NCBI RefSeq assembly: GCF_021044585.1
Contig: NZ_CP087998.1
Coordinates: forward strand, 2,356,001 to 2,420,000
Source: Sulfurimonas sp. HSL-3221
GTDB taxonomy: Bacteria; Campylobacterota; Campylobacteria; Campylobacterales; Sulfurimonadaceae
Direction: 5' to 3'
DNA length: 64,000 nucleotides
In this document: in pieces, positions 11,103 through 19,940 of the stretch
How the letters are laid out: the number at the start of each line of letters is the position of its first letter
How positions within the stretch are numbered: position 1 is the first letter of the stretch
Position numbers and translations under genes: made by a program
Notes under the pieces: generated by a model
Database searches by the model: none
The model's input: the letters and a program-made list of their open reading frames with translations, nothing else
What the model was told of the DNA's origin: nothing

Positions 11103-12875
11103 TCAGTGCAGCGGATAACGCTCCATCGTGACGGCCTTGACGCCGGTCGGGGCGCCGATGGCCACTTCCCGGTGCACATTGAGGGCCGGGGCAACATGCG
11201 CATCGCGTCCGTAAATGTAGCTCTGGGCATCAACGATCACCCTGTAGGCCTTGTTCAGCATCAACGCCCGCCCGGGCGTGGGAAGGATCAGCCGTGAGAC
11301 ATCGCTGTGCAGCGCTTCGATCTCGGATAGTTTCAGGCTCCCGTTGGCATCGAAAAAGCGCGCCATCACCTCATCGTTGCCGCGGAATTCGTCCCCGGCA
11401 TGGTTAGCTTCGAGGTAGAGAGTGTACTCATAGCGGCCGTCGGCCAGCATCGGCTCTTTGATATCTTTGAAACCGCGCGCCGACTGTGTCCAGTGGTACC
11501 ATCCCATCTGCTTCGCCCCCGCATCGAATTTACGCGGGAAAACAAAAGTACTGTCGACGACGGCACCGATCCCTGAATGGCAGCCGATACAGAAGAGCGT
11601 CTCCTCGTAGGTCTGAGGCCGCAGGTACCCCTGCTTGTCCTCGATGAACCCCTGATAGACCCAGCCCAGCCCCGTATTGAGTCCCGTCTCTTCATTGCCG
11701 GTAATCGTACGCAGCCGATTGGGAAAGTCATCTTTGTCCTTGATCTCCGCCTGCGCCGCGTTGGAGAGCTGCGGGTAGGTGTTCCAGGCGCTCTTGCGTC
11801 CGTAGCGCAACTCCTTCATCCGCGGAGCCATCCCGATGCTGCCGTTGGCATCCACGTCGATATAGCGCACTGTATGCAGGAACTCCGTCTGCTCTGGGTA
11901 GAGGCCCGGGGCCATGTGCAGCGCGTTGTCGATCTGCGCGTTTTCGGCGCGCCCGACATAGGACATGGCGTAGTTGAAAAAGCGCTTCTTTACAAAATCG
12001 TACGAGGGCGCGGCCCAGCGGTAGACAACCTTGGTCGCGCTGTCCAGGGTCCCGTTTTGGTTCAGGTCCACGCCGAACACCTTCTCGTCCACCGGCTCGA
12101 TCGCAATGTCGCTGCGTTTGATCAGCGCCTCCACGATGGCGAGGTTGACCTTGTAGACCTCTTTGTCAAAGACGCCCTCCTTGTTCTGCCGCATCACGTC
12201 CGGCAGCCGGATCAGCACATCGTCCGTAGAACCGTTCGTCGGCCAAAAGGTACCGAGGAAAGGGTAGTAGGCAAAGGCCCGCCAGCCGGTATAGGCGCCG
12301 TTCGGGTCACGGTCGAACCCCTCCCCGTCGAACGCGAAGTAGCAGTCAGGGGTAAAGCCGCCCCACTTCCCGTCATGGTTGTAATCCCAGGCATCCGGAA
12401 CATGCTTCAGGATCTCGCCGAGCATAATCGTGCCATTGGCGTCGAAATAGTTATCCCCGCGGACATAATCGAGGATCGCCGCGTCGGAGACGGCAGCAAC
12501 GGCATCGGTACGGTCGCTGAAGAGGTTGGTCCACGGGTTCTTATAGGTCGCTTCACTGAACCTGTAGCTCTCCTGCAGCGCCGCATCGTCGATATAGTTG
12601 GGCTCGACCGAATTGGTATGGCAGGTGAAACAGGGGTTGTGCGTGTTCCCGCCGCCATCCTCTGTTTTCGTATAACACTGCGACGTCACATAGGCACCGG
12701 CGCTGTTCTTGACGGTCATCGCCGTCACGTCCGTGAAAAGCTGGTCCGTTTCATAGGCAGTCGCATTCACCTCGGGAAGCGGTGTTGGCGTCGCATTGGC
12801 GTCACCTGCCGGAGTATCGCTGCTGCAGCCTGAAAACAGTAAAACAAATGCCAGAATATAAGAGGGGTATGTCAT
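11103..12875 (-). CDS. Diheme c-type cytochrome lipoprotein, unknown family
   Basis: A 590-residue exported protein with two haem-binding CxxCH motifs, CFTCH at about residue 80 and CIGCH at about 450. The chosen ATG at 12873-12875 gives a lipoprotein signal with lipobox LLFSGC (Cys17) and has AAGGAAAG just upstream; an earlier in-frame start would add 38 residues without signal character. Four DANG or NQNG loops resemble calcium-binding or EF-hand-like turns. Just after the lipid anchor are DANAT and EVNAT, both fitting bacterial N-glycosylation sequons. It is last in the seven-gene envelope operon. I do not recognise the family; a surface or periplasmic redox role is inference. Confidence 0.8.
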   Translation of the reverse strand: MTYPSYILAFVLLFSGCSSDTPAGDANATPTPLPEVNATAYETDQLFTDVTAMTVKNSAGAYVTSQCYTKTEDGGGNTHNPCFTCHTNSVEPNYIDDAALQESYRFSEATYKNPWTNLFSDRTDAVAAVSDAAILDYVRGDNYFDANGTIMLGEILKHVPDAWDYNHDGKWGGFTPDCYFAFDGEGFDRDPNGAYTGWRAFAYYPFLGTFWPTNGSTDDVLIRLPDVMRQNKEGVFDKEVYKVNLAIVEALIKRSDIAIEPVDEKVFGVDLNQNGTLDSATKVVYRWAAPSYDFVKKRFFNYAMSYVGRAENAQIDNALHMAPGLYPEQTEFLHTVRYIDVDANGSIGMAPRMKELRYGRKSAWNTYPQLSNAAQAEIKDKDDFPNRLRTITGNEETGLNTGLGWVYQGFIEDKQGYLRPQTYEETLFCIGCHSGIGAVVDSTFVFPRKFDAGAKQMGWYHWTQSARGFKDIKEPMLADGRYEYTLYLEANHAGDEFRGNDEVMARFFDANGSLKLSEIEALHSDVSRLILPTPGRALMLNKAYRVIVDAQSYIYGRDAHVAPALNVHREVAIGAPTGVKAVTMERYPLH

Positions 12876-12886
12876 ATTTCTTTCCT

Positions 12887-12920
12887 TGCAGACCGTACGG
12901 AGGAGGCGGTACGGTCTGCA
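12887..12920 (-). repeat. Perfect 12-bp hairpin before the cytochrome gene
   Basis: TGCAGACCGTAC and its exact complement enclose a 10-base loop. On the transcript the hairpin ends directly at the AAGGAAAG ribosome-binding site of the diheme lipoprotein gene, and its loop reads CGCCTCCTCC, which resembles anti-Shine-Dalgarno sequence. A second, slightly imperfect GC stem lies at about 12949-12967, overlapping the end of the PhoX-like gene. Neither is followed by a U-run, so they are more likely processing, stabilising or attenuating structures than terminators. Confidence 0.55.
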
Positions 12921-12963
12921 CGAAGAGAAGGCGGAAGGCCCTCCCTGGTCGCCCGGGGGGCGA

Positions 12964-14838
12964 TCAGAACTTGAACGGTCCGACGACACCGACGAAGGAC
13001 TCTTTCTGTGCGTCCGTCGCCTGGCCGACGAGGCCGTACTCTACGTCACCGGTGGAAACTTCACCGAAGGGGTGCTGCGTGACGACGGTGAGGTAGTCAT
13101 ACCCTTTGACGTCGCGCTCCCAGTACGGGGACGTTGTCTCGGAGCCGTACGGCGTGGAGATGATGCGGGTCATCTTTTCGCTGACGACATCGTAAGCCCA
13201 GACGAAGTCATTCGGGTGGTAGCCGGTATCTTCGCCGATCGCCAGGATGTTCTGTCCTGCAAGGTACGTGACGTTATCCGGGTTGGCGATGCCGCTGACC
13301 GCACAAGTGTAGCTCTCATAGGCGGAACCTTCCGGGTAGCTTGCTGGCGCACCTGCGACAACCCCGTACATGTTGCTGACGACGTAGTTACTGTCGATCT
13401 TGCTCTGCACCGTATCATAGGCTGCCTGGCTTTCGCCGTTGATGTTCAGGCCGTAAACCGCGCCGCACTTGTTGTCGCTGAGCTGAACGTCGCCCTCGCC
13501 ATCCGTCATCCCTTTAGTGACCTGGCTCATTGCTACGAACAGGACACCGTGATCAGGGTCAAAGGTGATCCCCTCCTCTTTTCTGAACTCGGTCGTCGCA
13601 CCCTTCATTGCTGCATAACGACGTGTTTCGAGGAATGCTGCTGCTTTGTCCATACCGGTTTTGACCTGCAGACACTCTTTGCCCATCGCCGTGTTGACGT
13701 AGGTATAGCCCGGGTTACATGCATCGGCAACAGGCGCTTCGTAGGCGAAGATGTCGCTGAAGACCGGCTCGCCGGCAACGATCGTGCGGATCTCCGCATC
13801 CGTCGCGTGACCCAGTTTGATCCACATCAGGTCGGCTTTGCCGGCACCTTCGTCGGACGTCTGGATCCACTTGGCCGCGTACAGCGTCCCCGCGCTCAGA
13901 TCCTGCGCCGCATCGGCGATGTACATGTAGAAGCCGACGTTCGTACCGTCATCAGAGAGGTACGCCGTACGCTCGTCCGGCATGACGTAGGCAAGTTCCC
14001 ATGCCGCACGGCCCATGCTGAAGTGTTTTGTATAACCGAAGACCGGTGTCGCGACAGACGCGTCAACCGTGACTTCCGGGATCCAGCCGTAGAAGTACGG
14101 GTTGTTGTCCGCCGTGGCGTTCGCGTTGTTCTCGTCATGCCAGTAGAACTTCGTTACCTCGTTGAAGCGGGAGTTGCCTGTCAGCTTCGTGGAAGGATCA
14201 AGCGTATCCTCGATTTTTTTCGCATCGGGCTCATACTCTTCGGAACCGAGGTGGGATTCCCACGGCGTCGTCATACCGGCACAGTGGACCCAGCCGCCGA
14301 ACTCCGCTTTCTGGCTGATATACTGCATGGAGTCCGGTTTGACGGAGAGCGTACCCTTGTTCTGCTGCAGCTCCATCCCGTACATGCCGCCGATGCCGCA
14401 TTCGAACTGGTTGACCATAAAGATACGGCCATTGGCACGCAGAATGGAGGAGTGGTCCAGACCCGAACCGTCGCCGCTGTTTGTACCGTTACAGATATAC
14501 GGGCTGCCGTCGGTAAAAGAGATCGCCGCGTCCGTATGGTCTTTGAGCAGGCCGAAGGTTTCGCCGTTGTTCACATCGGCCGTCGCCATCAGCTTCGTAA
14601 AGCCGATCGTCTCCGTTTTGCCCGTTTCGAGGTAGGTCACGCTGTCCGTTGCACGGAGCGAAGACTTCTCCTCGTCGAGAACAGGAGCGCTCAGCTCTGA
14701 AAAAGAGAGCAGTGTCGCTTCGTTCGTGTTCGGAGTAATGCCGTCAACGCCGTTGGAGCCGTCTTCGGTACAGCCGCTGAGCATCAGCAGTGCTGCTGCC
14801 GAGGCGGATAACATGATCATTGTTTTATCAAACTTCAT
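12964..14838 (-). CDS. PhoX-like (DUF839) lipoprotein phosphatase candidate
   Basis: The product resembles PhoX-type alkaline phosphatases, which hydrolyse phosphate esters at the envelope using Fe and Ca. Supporting blocks are LETRRYAAMKGATTEFRKEE, GIANPDNVTYL and GEDTGYHPNDFVWAYD. The chosen start (624 residues) gives MKFDKTMIMLSASAAALLM followed by lipobox LSGC. An in-frame ATG at 14946 with a strong GGGAGA site would add 36 residues holding another hydrophobic helix, so the true start is open. PhoX is normally Tat-exported; here no twin-arginine motif is seen. It follows the barrel gene by at most 10 bases if the upstream start is used. Substrate is not known. Confidence 0.78.
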   Translation of the reverse strand: MKFDKTMIMLSASAAALLMLSGCTEDGSNGVDGITPNTNEATLLSFSELSAPVLDEEKSSLRATDSVTYLETGKTETIGFTKLMATADVNNGETFGLLKDHTDAAISFTDGSPYICNGTNSGDGSGLDHSSILRANGRIFMVNQFECGIGGMYGMELQQNKGTLSVKPDSMQYISQKAEFGGWVHCAGMTTPWESHLGSEEYEPDAKKIEDTLDPSTKLTGNSRFNEVTKFYWHDENNANATADNNPYFYGWIPEVTVDASVATPVFGYTKHFSMGRAAWELAYVMPDERTAYLSDDGTNVGFYMYIADAAQDLSAGTLYAAKWIQTSDEGAGKADLMWIKLGHATDAEIRTIVAGEPVFSDIFAYEAPVADACNPGYTYVNTAMGKECLQVKTGMDKAAAFLETRRYAAMKGATTEFRKEEGITFDPDHGVLFVAMSQVTKGMTDGEGDVQLSDNKCGAVYGLNINGESQAAYDTVQSKIDSNYVVSNMYGVVAGAPASYPEGSAYESYTCAVSGIANPDNVTYLAGQNILAIGEDTGYHPNDFVWAYDVVSEKMTRIISTPYGSETTSPYWERDVKGYDYLTVVTQHPFGEVSTGDVEYGLVGQATDAQKESFVGVVGPFKF

Positions 14839-14956
14839 CGTCCAATCCTTGTTTAAAAAAGATGGCGAATTGTAGAAGGCGAATATTACGCCCGCGATGC
14901 CGATTGATATCGCCAGCGTTACGGCAAGGATACGTTTTGAAAACATTCGTTTCTCC

Positions 14957-16093
14957 CTAATAGCTGGCCTGCCACTCCAGGTAAAAGCGCTCGCCGTAGG
15001 GGCCGAACGCGCTGCTGTCGCTGCCGAACCCCAGCAGCATACCGGCCGTGAAGGTGTTGTGATCGTTCAGGGTGTAGGTCAGTGACGGTGCGACGAAACG
15101 GCTGTTCGCCTCGTCGAAGCTCTCTATGTAGAGAAAGGAACCGCTGAAGGCGAGGTTGAAATCATATGCCAACGTCGTCCCGGCGTAAAAAGGGGACTGC
15201 ACCATATTCCCGACCAGTTCATCGGCGTAGTTGTCAAGCAGCTGCGTATAGGTGAAGGTTTCGGAGCTGTAGAGGGCTTCGACAACCCAGGTGATGCCGT
15301 TTTCGAATCCGTAGTCAAACCCGGCGATCCCCTGGAAGAACTCGGTGCCCAGGAGGTCGCTCTTGAAGTACCCCCCTTCGCTCCGCCACTCCGCCCCGGT
15401 ACTGAAAAAGTTCCCTTCGAGCTCATACCCTATCATCAGGGTATCTTCGCTGCGGATAAAGTCGATGCCGACATCGGCAAAGGCCAGGTACCCCTTCCCT
15501 CGTGCGGCATATTTGAACGTGCGGTCGTGGCGGAGGGATGCGACGGCAGTGACGGTACTGAGGTCACTGGGGGCATAGCTGTAGGTCGTCGCCAAAACGC
15601 CGTACACCTCGTCAGGCTCCAGGGCGTAGCTGTTCTTCGCGTTGTAGAGGTCCGTCGGCGTCCAGATCCGCCCCACCCCCATGCTGATCTTCTGGACCCC
15701 GGCGGTGATCCGCTGCACACTGTCCTCATAGCCGCCGTAGAGGCGGTATATCCGCGCATGGGCTACGCCCGGACCGTAATGCTGCGCCTCGGTGCGCACT
15801 TCGAAGGGGATGTCCGGCCGGACCTCGTCAAACAGCGCGAATTCGTCACTGTGCACATACCCTTCTCCCAGATAGTTGACGACGTCACCGATGCCCGTCA
15901 GAAAATAGGCCCCGCTGCGCCAGCCCCCGCTGAGCCGGAGCCGGTCATAGTCATAGGTGTACGCCGTGTCGTCGAGACCGGAGTGCTGCTGCAGCAGGAA
16001 ATTCGTATTTTCGATCGTGAAGGTCGTCTCCGCCGCCCGTAGCGGCATCAGAACCAGCAGTAACGATGCACCAGCGAAACGCCGCAGGGTCAT
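14957..16093 (-). CDS. Outer-membrane beta-barrel protein, unknown substrate
   Basis: A 378-residue predicted barrel. Residues 1-20 form a signal peptide ending LMPLRAAE. The rest alternates hydrophobic and polar residues with many Tyr, Phe and Trp, as in beta-strands, and the chain ends YLEWQASY with a terminal aromatic residue, the usual barrel-assembly signal. The gene overlaps the ABC ATPase gene by four bases (ATGA), so it is coupled to the transporter. I do not recognise a named porin family. The context suggests the outer-membrane part of the adjacent ABC and LolA-like system, which is inference. Confidence 0.75.
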   Translation of the reverse strand: MTLRRFAGASLLLVLMPLRAAETTFTIENTNFLLQQHSGLDDTAYTYDYDRLRLSGGWRSGAYFLTGIGDVVNYLGEGYVHSDEFALFDEVRPDIPFEVRTEAQHYGPGVAHARIYRLYGGYEDSVQRITAGVQKISMGVGRIWTPTDLYNAKNSYALEPDEVYGVLATTYSYAPSDLSTVTAVASLRHDRTFKYAARGKGYLAFADVGIDFIRSEDTLMIGYELEGNFFSTGAEWRSEGGYFKSDLLGTEFFQGIAGFDYGFENGITWVVEALYSSETFTYTQLLDNYADELVGNMVQSPFYAGTTLAYDFNLAFSGSFLYIESFDEANSRFVAPSLTYTLNDHNTFTAGMLLGFGSDSSAFGPYGERFYLEWQASY

Positions 16094-16758
16094 GGCACGA
16101 CTTGCCCGTCGCTGAGCTTGATGATCCGGCGGGCCTGTTCCACGACGTAATCGTCGTGCGAAGAGAAGAGGATCGTGATCTTTTCGACCGCGTTGAGCTG
16201 CTTCATCATCGCCATCAGGTGCTCGGAGTTGCGCGAATCGAGGTTGGCCGTCGGTTCGTCGGCGAGAATGAGTTTCGGTTTCGCCGCCACGGCCCGGGCC
16301 ACGGCGACGCGCTGCTGCTGGCCGCCGCTGATATGGCCCGGCATGGCATCGAGCTTCTCCTCTATTTCCAGCAGTTTTGCCACCTCCGCCACCCGCGTCT
16401 CGATCGCGTCCGGTGCAAAGCCGCGCAGCTTCATGATGAAGCCGATGTTCTCGCGCACCGTGAGGACGGGCACAAGGTTATAGGCCTGGAAGACGAAGCC
16501 GATCTGTTCCAGGCGCAGCCGCGAGCGTGCCCCCTCGTCCAGGCCGGAGAGTTCGGTGCCGTCGATGGTTATGGAGCCGCTGTCGATGGCGTCGAGCGCC
16601 CCGATGGCGTTGAGCAGCGTTGTTTTACCGCAGCCCGAGGGCCCGGTGATCACCCCGTACTCCCCCGTCGCGACGGCGAGGTCGATGTCGCGCAGGGCGT
16701 GCACCTCGCGCTCCGTATCCTTGTAAAAGTATTTGTTCACTCTGCGCAGTTCGATCAT
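16090..16758 (-). CDS. ABC transporter ATPase, LolD/MacB type
   Basis: This 222-residue ATPase powers the two permeases encoded just upstream. It has Walker [10 protein letters not shown] near residue 40, the Q-loop region [17 protein letters not shown], the signature [14 protein letters not shown] and Walker [14 protein letters not shown]. These match the LolD/MacB branch, which works by mechanotransmission across the periplasm rather than by moving substrate through the membrane. The gene overlaps both neighbours by four bases. The substrate is unknown; lipoprotein or lipid extraction is suggested by the LolA-like partner. Confidence 0.95.
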
Positions 16759-17990
16759 ACCTGTATCACCTCGATAAGATTAAGCTTTTTGAGCCTTCGC
16801 AACGGCATCAGCACCGACACGATCGCCGCCGCGATGATGGCCAGGAAGGTGTTGGTGAAGTAGCGGCTCTTGATATCGGCGTAGACGACGGCGTTGTAGC
16901 CGAACGCCTCCAGCCCCGCCGCGTATTCGCGCAGGTCGAGCCCCTGCGTCTGCAGGTACCACAGGGCGGCGTAGCTGGTGAATGCCCCCAGCACAAAACC
17001 GACCACGCCCAGCACCAGCGCCTCCGCGGCGACCTGGGTGCGCAGCTGCGACTGGGGTGTCCCCAGCGCGATGAGGATGCCGAACTCGCGGGTCCGCTCA
17101 AGCACCGAGACGAGCATGACGCCGAAGATGCCGATGAGGACCACAAGCATGACGATGGCAAAGGTAATGGAGTTGAAGATGACCATCATCTCCTGCATCT
17201 GTTGGAGCACCGGGTAGAGCGTCTGCCACGTCTCGACCTCCAGCCCCGGGAAGGCGGCCTGCAGCCGTGCGGCAACCGCTTCCGTCTGCGAAGGTGCCGC
17301 CAGCCGCAGCGCCACCTGGGTCGCGCCGTTCGCACCCAGTCCTGAGAAGGTGCGGCTGCGCGGCAGGGCGACGTAGATCGTCTGGTTGTCGATGAGCAGG
17401 TTCGACGTCTGCACGATCGCCGTCACATAGAGCGAAACGGCGCTGATATCCCCCTGGGCGTTCTGCGACGAGAAGACCAGGCGGTGCCCCACCTCGACGC
17501 CCAGATCTTCCGCCAGTTTCTTGCCGATGGCGCAGCCGTTCTGCCGCCGCCCCCAGTCGATTTTCCCCGTTTTGACAAAGCCGGAGAGCTGCCCGAAGCG
17601 CTCTTCGGCCTCCAGGTCGATGCCGACCAGCCGTCCCATCGCCGACTTGCGCGCGGTCGAGGCCAGGCCGGTCTGCGATAGCCTGACGGAGTAGGCGGCG
17701 ACGGCCGTGTCCGCATCCAGTGCTTCCAGCAGCGGCCGGTCGTCGGCGATGGCGTACTCCAGGCTCTGGTAGAGCCGGAACTTCGGGGCGTAGACGGAGA
17801 TCTCGCCACTGTCGCTGCGGATCGTGCTCTCGCGCATCGTTTTGACCATGCCGTCGTAAAGCCCCTCGATGGCGAGCATCGCCGTCATACTGCCGGCAAT
17901 CATGAGAATGACGAGCCCGGAGCGGCGGGCGCGGCGCCACAGGCTGTGCCATGCCATCTTCAGGGCCAGGGTGAAGGTCGTTTTAGACAT
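16755..17990 (-). CDS. FtsX/MacB-type ABC transporter permease (second)
   Basis: The product has an N-terminal membrane helix near residues 22-42, a large periplasmic domain, and three C-terminal helices including the stretch around IVMLVVLIGIFGVMLVSVLE, the MacB/FtsX layout. The chosen ATG (MSKTTFTLALKMAWHSL) has GGAGG 10 bases upstream and starts inside the last codons of the preceding permease gene with an 8-base overlap; longer in-frame starts read into that gene. About 411 residues. With its paralogue it probably forms a LolC/LolE-like heterodimer. Confidence 0.92.
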   Translation of the reverse strand: MSKTTFTLALKMAWHSLWRRARRSGLVILMIAGSMTAMLAIEGLYDGMVKTMRESTIRSDSGEISVYAPKFRLYQSLEYAIADDRPLLEALDADTAVAAYSVRLSQTGLASTARKSAMGRLVGIDLEAEERFGQLSGFVKTGKIDWGRRQNGCAIGKKLAEDLGVEVGHRLVFSSQNAQGDISAVSLYVTAIVQTSNLLIDNQTIYVALPRSRTFSGLGANGATQVALRLAAPSQTEAVAARLQAAFPGLEVETWQTLYPVLQQMQEMMVIFNSITFAIVMLVVLIGIFGVMLVSVLERTREFGILIALGTPQSQLRTQVAAEALVLGVVGFVLGAFTSYAALWYLQTQGLDLREYAAGLEAFGYNAVVYADIKSRYFTNTFLAIIAAAIVSVLMPLRRLKKLNLIEVIQV

Positions 17991-19203
17991 GGTGCATCGC
18001 CTCCACCGGGGTGTAACGCTTGACGACCGCAATGGGGTAGAGGACGGCCAGCATATTGAGAGCAAAGACAACTCCCGCATTCCAGCCGATGGTGGACCAG
18101 TCGAAACGCATCGGAATCTGGTCGTCGACGATCCCGTAGTCGCGGTACGCCTCCGCGATCCCCTCGATCACCATGGGATGCAACTCGAAATACCAGGCGA
18201 TCGGCGCCCCCACTGCCACGGAGAGCCCAACGGCCGCGAGCGCGATCAGCAGCATCTCCAGCAGCAGCAGTGCGGAGACGTTCCGGGGGGAGAGGCCGAT
18301 GGCGCGCAGCATCCCCAGCTCCCGGGTCCGTCCGACGATGTTGAGGAAACTGAAGATCATGATGACAAAGAAAATAACGACGAAGAAGACCCCCATTGAG
18401 ATGTAGCCGAAGACGCTGTCCACCTCCATCGCCTCCACCTGCGCATGCATCAATACGGTCCACGGCACGGCCTCGAGCCCCTCGGCCAGCCCGGCCTGCA
18501 CCGCGTTGACCGTCTGCGGCAGCGCCGTGAGGTCATCGACGGAAGCGACAATGTACGATGCCATATCCCCGCTCAGCATCAGGGTGTCGTAGTACGCCTT
18601 GTTCACAAATGCGGAGGAGGCGTCAAATTCAAAGAGGCCCGTTTTGAAAATGCCGACGATCCGGAAATTCTCCGCGGCAAAGGAGTCGTCCGTCGCCGTG
18701 CCGATGAGCGCCACGGTATCGCCGACCCCCACCTTCAGCCTCACCGCCAGTTCGCTGCCGATATAAAGCGCGTTGGTGTCGTTATCCTCGAGGTAGCGCC
18801 CTTCACGGCGCGCTTCAGCCATTTTGGAAAGCCGTCGTTCCCCTCCGGGGTTGATGCCTACGACCATCGCCCCCACAGAATCACGGGGGGTGGAGAGCAG
18901 CGCGAAACTCTCCAGGCGCGGCGCGTAGGCCGCGATCCCCGCCGTGCGCGCCAGCAGCGCCTCCTCGGCCGAGACGTCGGTCAGCAGGTAGTCATACCCC
19001 CCCTCTTCACGGTACCCTTTTTTGTAGATATGCAGGGCGTTTTCATAGATGTCGAGGGCGCTTTTGAGCATATGCGCATGCGAACCGTCCATCAGGGCGA
19101 CGTAGACGATAAAGAGCAGGGAGCTGAAAAACGTCAGCGCAAAGGTGACGACGGTCCGCCCTTTGTAATGGAGGATGTTTTTCAACGCCAGTCCGAACAT
19201 CAT
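17983..19203 (-). CDS. FtsX/MacB-type ABC transporter permease (first)
   Basis: A 406-residue permease starting MMFGLALKNILHYKGRTVV, with one N-terminal helix, a periplasmic domain of about 230 residues and three C-terminal helices, for example FFVVIFFVIMIFSFLNIVG followed by GRTRELGMLRAIGLS. This is the typical FtsX end. It starts five bases after the LolA-like gene and overlaps the second permease gene by eight. Two different permeases with one ATPase recall LolCDE, but the sequence alone does not give the substrate. Confidence 0.92.
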   Translation of the reverse strand: MMFGLALKNILHYKGRTVVTFALTFFSSLLFIVYVALMDGSHAHMLKSALDIYENALHIYKKGYREEGGYDYLLTDVSAEEALLARTAGIAAYAPRLESFALLSTPRDSVGAMVVGINPGGERRLSKMAEARREGRYLEDNDTNALYIGSELAVRLKVGVGDTVALIGTATDDSFAAENFRIVGIFKTGLFEFDASSAFVNKAYYDTLMLSGDMASYIVASVDDLTALPQTVNAVQAGLAEGLEAVPWTVLMHAQVEAMEVDSVFGYISMGVFFVVIFFVIMIFSFLNIVGRTRELGMLRAIGLSPRNVSALLLLEMLLIALAAVGLSVAVGAPIAWYFELHPMVIEGIAEAYRDYGIVDDQIPMRFDWSTIGWNAGVVFALNMLAVLYPIAVVKRYTPVEAMHHV

Positions 19204-19208
19204 GATCC

Positions 19209-19940
19209 CTAGCGCGAGTAGCGTTTAAGCGCCTGCTTCGTGAAATAGCTGCCGCTCACGCCCCGGTCGTAGACGACGTCGGAGAGGAGCACCAGCGTCT
19301 CGTTCTTCTCCTTGCCCTTCTCCAGCGGTTTGATCCGCATAACCGTCGGGATATGGTGCGTACCGAAGGTTTTGACGTCACTGTAAAACATCTCCCGCAC
19401 CTTGCTGCCGAAATCGTCGTAAAAGACGTCATGCATCTGGGTATAGGTCCGCCGGTCGATCTGCGAGACAATCCGTCCCCACACGACGGCCGCATCGGGT
19501 TTCGGGGTGAAAGCGATGGTTACCGTCTCCGCCGTCTTTTCGAGGATCTCTGCGTCATAGTCGTCGACCATCGAACTCTCTTTAACCATGTCGTCGTTGG
19601 TGAAATCGCTCCCCATCCAGCTCTGCAGCATCATCGACGGCGGGATCTTGACGATGCGTTCGATCTTCGGCACGTACTGCCATAGCTGCTTGTCGAGTTT
19701 TAAAAAGGTGATGCCGCTGTCTTTGGGCGGGTAGAGTATCTTCATGAAGCTCTTCGTCTTCCCCTCGGCCCAGCTCTCGATCCGCACCGTCCGCTTGTGC
19801 CGCGCCGAGGTGATGACCATCTCCAGCTTCATGTAGACGTCTTTTCCGCGAAGGTTATCCTCCACTTTTTTGACGATCTCGGAAGCCTCCGAACCGAACA
19901 GCAGGAGTGTCATCGAGAGCCAGACCAACAGTAACCGCAT
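19209..19940 (-). CDS. LolA-like outer-membrane lipoprotein-sorting protein
   Basis: The 243-residue periplasmic protein has a signal peptide (MRLLLVWLSMTLLLFGSEA) and the pattern of the LolA-like family that accompanies RND or MacB-type transporters: WAEGKTKSFMKILYPPKDSG, GITFLKLDKQLWQYVPKIER and MLQSWMGSDFTNDDMVKES. Such proteins are thought to carry hydrophobic cargo such as lipids or lipid anchors between membranes. It is the first gene of the seven-gene operon, preceded by GGGGAGGG and a TATAAT. The general housekeeping LolA would be a different gene. Confidence 0.9.
   Translation of the reverse strand: MRLLLVWLSMTLLLFGSEASEIVKKVEDNLRGKDVYMKLEMVITSARHKRTVRIESWAEGKTKSFMKILYPPKDSGITFLKLDKQLWQYVPKIERIVKIPPSMMLQSWMGSDFTNDDMVKESSMVDDYDAEILEKTAETVTIAFTPKPDAAVVWGRIVSQIDRRTYTQMHDVFYDDFGSKVREMFYSDVKTFGTHHIPTVMRIKPLEKGKEKNETLVLLSDVVYDRGVSGSYFTKQALKRYSR

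Follow-up and report, generated by a model that had tools for sequence, protein, structure and literature searches.

The window analysed here is a 64,000-nt stretch of the genome of Sulfurimonas sp. HSL-3221 (NZ_CP087998.1; 2.52 Mb, single contig), and coordinates are positions within it unless another locus is named. Its minus strand carries, from 19940 to 11103, seven genes in the order P7-P6-P5-P4-P3-P2-P1, which an earlier note on this DNA had described as a single envelope operon. All seven are present on that strand, with the family signals that the note assigned to them and approximately where it placed them. They form two modules, an exporter at 14957-19940 (module 1) and a PhoX-diheme pair at 11103-14838 (module 2), with the following features:

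19209..19940, minus strand: P7, LolA_like periplasmic carrier (243 aa, signal peptide; PF17131, E 1.2e-42)
17983..19203, minus strand: P6, FtsX/MacB_PCD-type permease a (406 aa; PF02687, PF12704; lolCE 103 bits)
16755..17990, minus strand: P5, FtsX/MacB_PCD-type permease b (411 aa; PF02687, PF12704; lolCE 82 bits)
16090..16758, minus strand: P4, ATP-binding cassette (ABC) ATPase (222 aa; PF00005, 1.8e-32; DevA/LolD/FtsE-like, all below cut-off)
14957..16093, minus strand: P3, predicted outer-membrane barrel, putative remote DUF1302 relative (378 aa, 18 strands, C-terminal aromatic)
14839..14956, minus strand: 118-nt gap between P3 and P2 (TACAAT box at 14874-14869; AAGGA before the ATG)
12964..14838, minus strand: P2, PhoX-like lipoprotein (624 aa; PF05787, 1.3e-16)
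12876..12963, minus strand: 88-nt gap between P2 and P1 (hairpin with a perfect 12-bp stem, immediately before the ribosome-binding site of P1)
11103..12875, minus strand: P1, diheme lipoprotein (two CxxCH motifs) with a P460/cytochrome c'-beta-like part (weak PF16694 match)

Three start codons were corrected in this annotation, to 17990 for P5, 14838 for P2 and 12875 (instead of 12989) for P1. At 14838, P2 has an AAGGA Shine-Dalgarno sequence and a signal peptide with a lipobox, while the longer open reading frame would contain an unlikely extra transmembrane segment. With this start the gap between the barrel and PhoX genes becomes 118 nt rather than ~10 nt, so that tight coupling extends only across the five exporter genes: P7 and P6 are 5 nt apart, P6 and P5 overlap by 8 nt, and the P5-P4 and P4-P3 overlaps are 4 nt each. 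The proposed seven-gene operon is therefore retained in part. Five genes are tightly coupled, but a single transcription unit is not established for all seven, given the 118-nt gap and the restriction of the full set to one genus.

To place the exporter among its relatives, we searched 299 genomes of the order, in 23 of which the barrel was found, and scanned named genomes, which gave 75 loci. After removal of duplicates there were 82 barrel loci, 70 with at least 4.5 kb of upstream sequence and 54 with at least 4.5 kb downstream. They come from Campylobacterota (the named relatives are mostly Sulfurimonas, Sulfurovum and Sulfuricurvum), Desulfobulbaceae, other deltaproteobacteria and Pseudomonadota. 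Genes for the LolA_like carrier, permease a, permease b, ATPase and barrel follow one another in that order and on one strand in 61 of the 70 loci, with the short overlaps mostly kept. In the other nine loci, the carrier or a permease is missing from the vicinity, the order is altered (L047), or the barrel is very distantly related. Linkage of the five-gene core in relatives is far beyond chance, and the view that ABC extraction, a LolA-like carrier and a barrel form one conserved unit is borne out. Additional copies of permease a lie within or beside the cassette at L061, L074, L083 and L116, and at L057, L067, L088 and L098 an insertion of 0.7-4.8 kb separates permease b from the ATPase in an otherwise intact cassette. 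A Desulfobulbaceae genome has a second, very divergent ABC form (L194 6463-9540), in which one permease stands beside a LolA_like gene.

The carrier P7 has LolA-superfamily relatives in the PDB (4z48, 3bk5, 9tp6 and 3buu), and searches of Pfam and NCBIfam gave no match to PF03548 or lolA (TIGR00547). Both permeases combine FtsX and MacB_PCD domains and match the lolCE models better than MacB, although their scores are far under the lolCE cut-off of 362 bits. This cut-off is strict, yet the shortfall is clear, because the genuine LolC/E encoded elsewhere in the same genome scores 250 bits. A canonical LolA (a PF03548 protein, 171 bits) is also encoded elsewhere, and with both present the five-gene unit can be regarded, as the earlier note suggested, as parallel to Lol.

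The permease domains are also those of MacAB-TolC, and the cassette might accordingly be read as an efflux pump whose substrates are antibiotics or small peptides, with the LolA_like protein as a fixed adaptor and the barrel as exit duct of one continuous conduit. TetR-type regulators adjoin the cassette in some relatives (confirmed by Pfam in L046, with similar N-termini in L037, L072 and L102), which counts in favour of this reading. However, no MacA-type adaptor or TolC-type channel is a conserved neighbour among the 82 loci, the genome has a separate MacB set (around G000:C1:301-304 kb), and LolA folds are soluble carriers in the known cases. Unlike MacAB-TolC, the window set has its ATPase as a separate gene and a LolA_like carrier and barrel in place of adaptor and TolC partner. 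We regard an efflux pump of this kind as quite improbable.

Searches of Pfam, NCBIfam and PDB sequences with the barrel P3, as a single sequence or as a profile, gave no match. An AlphaFold model built from an alignment of 23 homologues has 18 strands and a predicted local distance difference test score (pLDDT) of 90. By Foldseek and VIA-align, the nearest structures are the OprD/Occ and AlgE barrels (Z ~23, root-mean-square deviation ~3, ~300 residues aligned); since many unrelated porins are among the rows at Z 20-23, this match identifies a type of barrel and not a function. Omp85 folds are not among the fold matches listed, and such lists do not exclude an Omp85 type. When family profiles were compared using hhalign, the P3 family aligned with the barrels of cassettes built around resistance-nodulation-division (RND) pumps at 97.4% (E 1.3e-11, 241 columns), against 17% for an unrelated porin family and 1.5% for a reversed profile. 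In the absence of a direct sequence match, this profile-profile comparison is what ties P3 to DUF1302, and it identifies P3 as a predicted DUF1302-type barrel at the level of a remote homologue.

The same pairing of carrier and barrel recurs with other pumps. Across seven distant genomes, 20 neighbourhoods of LolA_like genes were compared: a pump adjoins the carrier in 19, the remaining one ending at a contig edge, and 19 of the 20 contain a barrel-sized protein, nearly all with a terminal F. The pump is either the ABC set or a protein of ~800 aa with 9-14 transmembrane segments; all four of the latter that were tested match MMPL (E below 1e-31). Two barrels of these tested MMPL cassettes match DUF1302 above its cut-off and two more touch the DUF1302 motif weakly. 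An RND cassette is also present in the genome of the window itself, at G000:C1:283-288 kb (L198 4065-8691). It encodes an HAE3-type pump, a barrel-like protein of 459 aa and a LolA_like carrier with a further match to DUF1329, the family to which the carrier of AmeB belongs. A divergent gene with a TetR-like N-terminus lies at this cassette, and a third LolA_like protein (L199 6162-8854) is convergent with an 11-transmembrane-segment protein lacking a Pfam match. In a tree of 38 carriers, the ABC-linked and RND-linked proteins separate with support of 100/97 and a single change, the placement of two ABC rows being unsure because of their long branches. In homology and gene linkage, the five-gene set is thus the ATP-powered counterpart of the RND/MMPL-LolA-DUF1302 cassettes.

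How close is this set to systems that have been named? In RND (HAE3/MMPL) cassettes with a LolA-superfamily (DUF1329 or LolA_like) protein and a DUF1302 barrel, such as AmeABCD, a LolA-fold carrier and a DUF1302-type barrel are likewise encoded with an inner-membrane pump. The pump there is of the RND type, whereas the window set uses an ATPase with a pair of FtsX permeases, and the window unit has no second periplasmic protein like AmeC. TOL_3187/TOL_3188 (PMC6304351) resembles the window set in having a pump, a LolA-like part and an adjacent porin, with the RND pump fused to the carrier. In Borrelia BBJ23-29 (PMC13078400), proposed to export a non-polar ligand, a single cluster likewise encodes a MacB/LolE-like ABC permease, an ATPase, a LolA-like protein and an outer-membrane barrel. 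Its one permease is homodimeric, its barrel belongs to the Omp85 family and it includes TPR proteins, while the window set has a pair of permeases and a DUF1302-related barrel with an apparent OprD/AlgE-type fold, and lacks TPR proteins. We therefore describe the window set as an ABC variant that would work like the RND cassettes and not as a member of their class, since its pump is of another kind; in its permeases, and probably in its barrel, it differs from the Borrelia set. A literature search for LolA-like proteins with FtsX and a barrel returned the Borrelia paper only, subscription papers and bioRxiv being mostly outside its scope. The earlier note's remark that no system of this composition had been described needs qualifying, as BBJ23-29 (PMC13078400) and the RND-LolA-DUF1302 systems (PMC6394551) come close.

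LolABCDE shares two permeases, an ATPase and a LolA-fold carrier with the window set. A second lipoprotein-sorting route could be imagined on this basis, with the ABC machine extracting some of the lipoproteins (P1 and P2 not being singled out) for delivery by carrier and barrel to the outer membrane or the cell surface. Both permeases being closer to lolCE than to MacB, the membership of P7 in the LolA superfamily, and the proposal that the similar Borrelia set moves lipoproteins or another non-polar ligand (PMC13078400) are all compatible with such a route. Yet the window set departs from LolABCDE in having a PF17131 rather than a PF03548 carrier, permeases at 82-103 bits where the genuine LolC/E of this genome reaches 250, and a barrel within the unit. 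The relatives of its carrier and barrel serve RND pumps tied to hydrophobic compounds, and an 18-strand barrel of the OprD/AlgE type is, in our judgement, small for the passage of a lipoprotein. We consider this route unlikely, though deserving of some weight.

Downstream of the exporter, P2 matches PF05787 at 61 bits against a cut-off of 24. Its residues C186, E200, E201 and E422 are invariant in 21 homologues, and C186 and the Glu pair align with those of solved PhoX. The PF05787 match and the Cys/Glu core of this alignment assign P2 to the PhoX family. The N-terminus of P2 is a Sec-type lipoprotein signal with no twin arginine; Tat export is usual for PhoX. The match of P1 to Cytochrome_P460 (PF16694) is slightly under the cut-off. 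Both CxxCH motifs are invariant in 17 homologues. The P1 model has a pLDDT of 67 (moderate confidence) and weak Foldseek matches to cytochrome c'-beta and P460.

Among the 299 genomes, P2 was found in 63 and P1 in 51. The two genes are neighbours, in tandem or divergent, at the 19 fetched loci that contain both (L209-L227), and the exporter is at none of these. One phytase-like gene lies between P2 and P1 at L226, and some genomes encode another heme protein after P1, which at L228 is a CCP/MauG-type cytochrome. Three genomes (G256, G163 and G089) have the exporter and the pair on separate contigs. P2 and P1 are thus a conserved two-gene module across Campylobacterota, separate from the exporter. 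Exporter and pair co-occur in 9 of 23 genomes where ~5 would be expected (hypergeometric P 0.03, or 0.11 with the genus counted once), a weak association that is confounded by kinship.

These distributions bear directly on the idea that the seven genes form one operon with the PhoX-like and diheme lipoproteins as dedicated clients or partners of the exporter. The genes do adjoin on the same strand, an arrangement maintained in three species of the window's genus, that of the window included, and in no other surveyed species. Of the 54 loci that extend far enough downstream, only those of two congeneric species have P1 or P2 no more than 5 kb from the barrel, with no linkage in the other 52; at L062 a diheme gene is 8.8 kb from the barrel, on the opposite strand. 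In many genomes the pair occurs by itself, and most of these lack the exporter; several P1 homologues have no lipobox; and a conserved, regulatory-looking gap separates the modules. The earlier note had tied barrel and lipoproteins alike to the carrier and permeases; in relatives the barrel keeps this linkage and the two lipoproteins do not. A role for them as clients or partners finds no support here, and we judge the seven-gene reading very improbable.

The 118-nt gap is identical at all 118 positions to that of a sister species (L030), although the flanking genes show only 80-88% identity there at third codon positions. Compared with L031, 111 of the 118 positions are identical, with changes spread over all codon positions. 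The TACAAT box within the gap is a consensus match only. The gap is probably a regulatory region (promoter or leader) of the PhoX-diheme pair, and its identity in the sister species suggests that the pair has its own promoter. In the 88-nt gap, the hairpin that had been noted before the last gene is real, with a perfect 12-bp stem, a 10-nt loop and a fold z of -4.95. Stem and loop are identical in three species, the hairpin is unique in the genome, and it has no T-run.

Taken together, we think it probable, by a modest degree, that 14957-19940 encodes a five-part trans-envelope transporter, comprising a pump, a LolA_like carrier and a DUF1302-related barrel, as the ABC counterpart of the RND cassettes. 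The lipoprotein pair is not a required part of it, and its two proteins are probably not specific clients. The ABC machine (P6, P5 and P4) would use ATP to extract a cargo from the inner membrane, as in LolCDE. P7 would take the cargo across the periplasm, as its fold family and strict linkage suggest, and the 18-strand barrel P3 would accept it at the outer membrane, passing it into the membrane or out of the cell. The PhoX-diheme pair is a second module, probably with its own promoter, that came to adjoin the exporter in the window's genus.

By analogy, a lipid or a hydrophobic compound is the most likely cargo, because relatives of the carrier and barrel serve RND pumps tied to monoterpenes and a long-chain alkane, and type VII ABC machines extract lipid-like molecules. 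AmeABCD of Castellaniella defragrans, an RND-LolA-DUF1302 system, is associated with monoterpene tolerance (PMC6394551). In Thalassolituus oleivorans, the MMPL-LolA fusion TOL_3187 and the adjacent porin TOL_3188 are induced by a C28 alkane (PMC6304351). Type VII machines with lipid-like substrates include LolCDE and YbbAP-TesA (PMC12646458). Several points weigh against this interpretation. The tie of P3 to DUF1302 comes from profile-profile comparison with no direct Pfam match, and several MMPL-cassette barrels themselves have no match above the DUF1302 cut-off. The best match of the permeases is to lolCE, if far under its cut-off, which leaves room for a lipoprotein cargo other than P1 or P2. 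Finally, no cargo-making gene recurs beside the cassette among the surveyed loci, so the cargo can only be inferred: the one recurrent downstream neighbour that was checked is isopropylmalate synthase, a housekeeping gene, and upstream regulators are mixed (TetR, Crp-like), with no single partner.

More broadly, and more tentatively, there may be a general class of envelope transporters that share a DUF1302-type barrel and a LolA-fold carrier and have acquired, in evolution, an RND pump in some cases and a two-permease ABC machine in others. The ABC form would then be the one in the window, an ATP-driven route of lipid export to the outer membrane that is separate from Lol and serves a lipid lacking an assigned exporter. 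The transport of lipids and other greasy molecules to the outer membrane is largely an open question. With pump, carrier and barrel in one conserved five-gene unit, the whole of such a route is testable by a single knock-out. The LolA_like carriers, which occur with either of two unrelated pump types and fall into two clades by pump, provide a natural experiment on carrier-pump docking.

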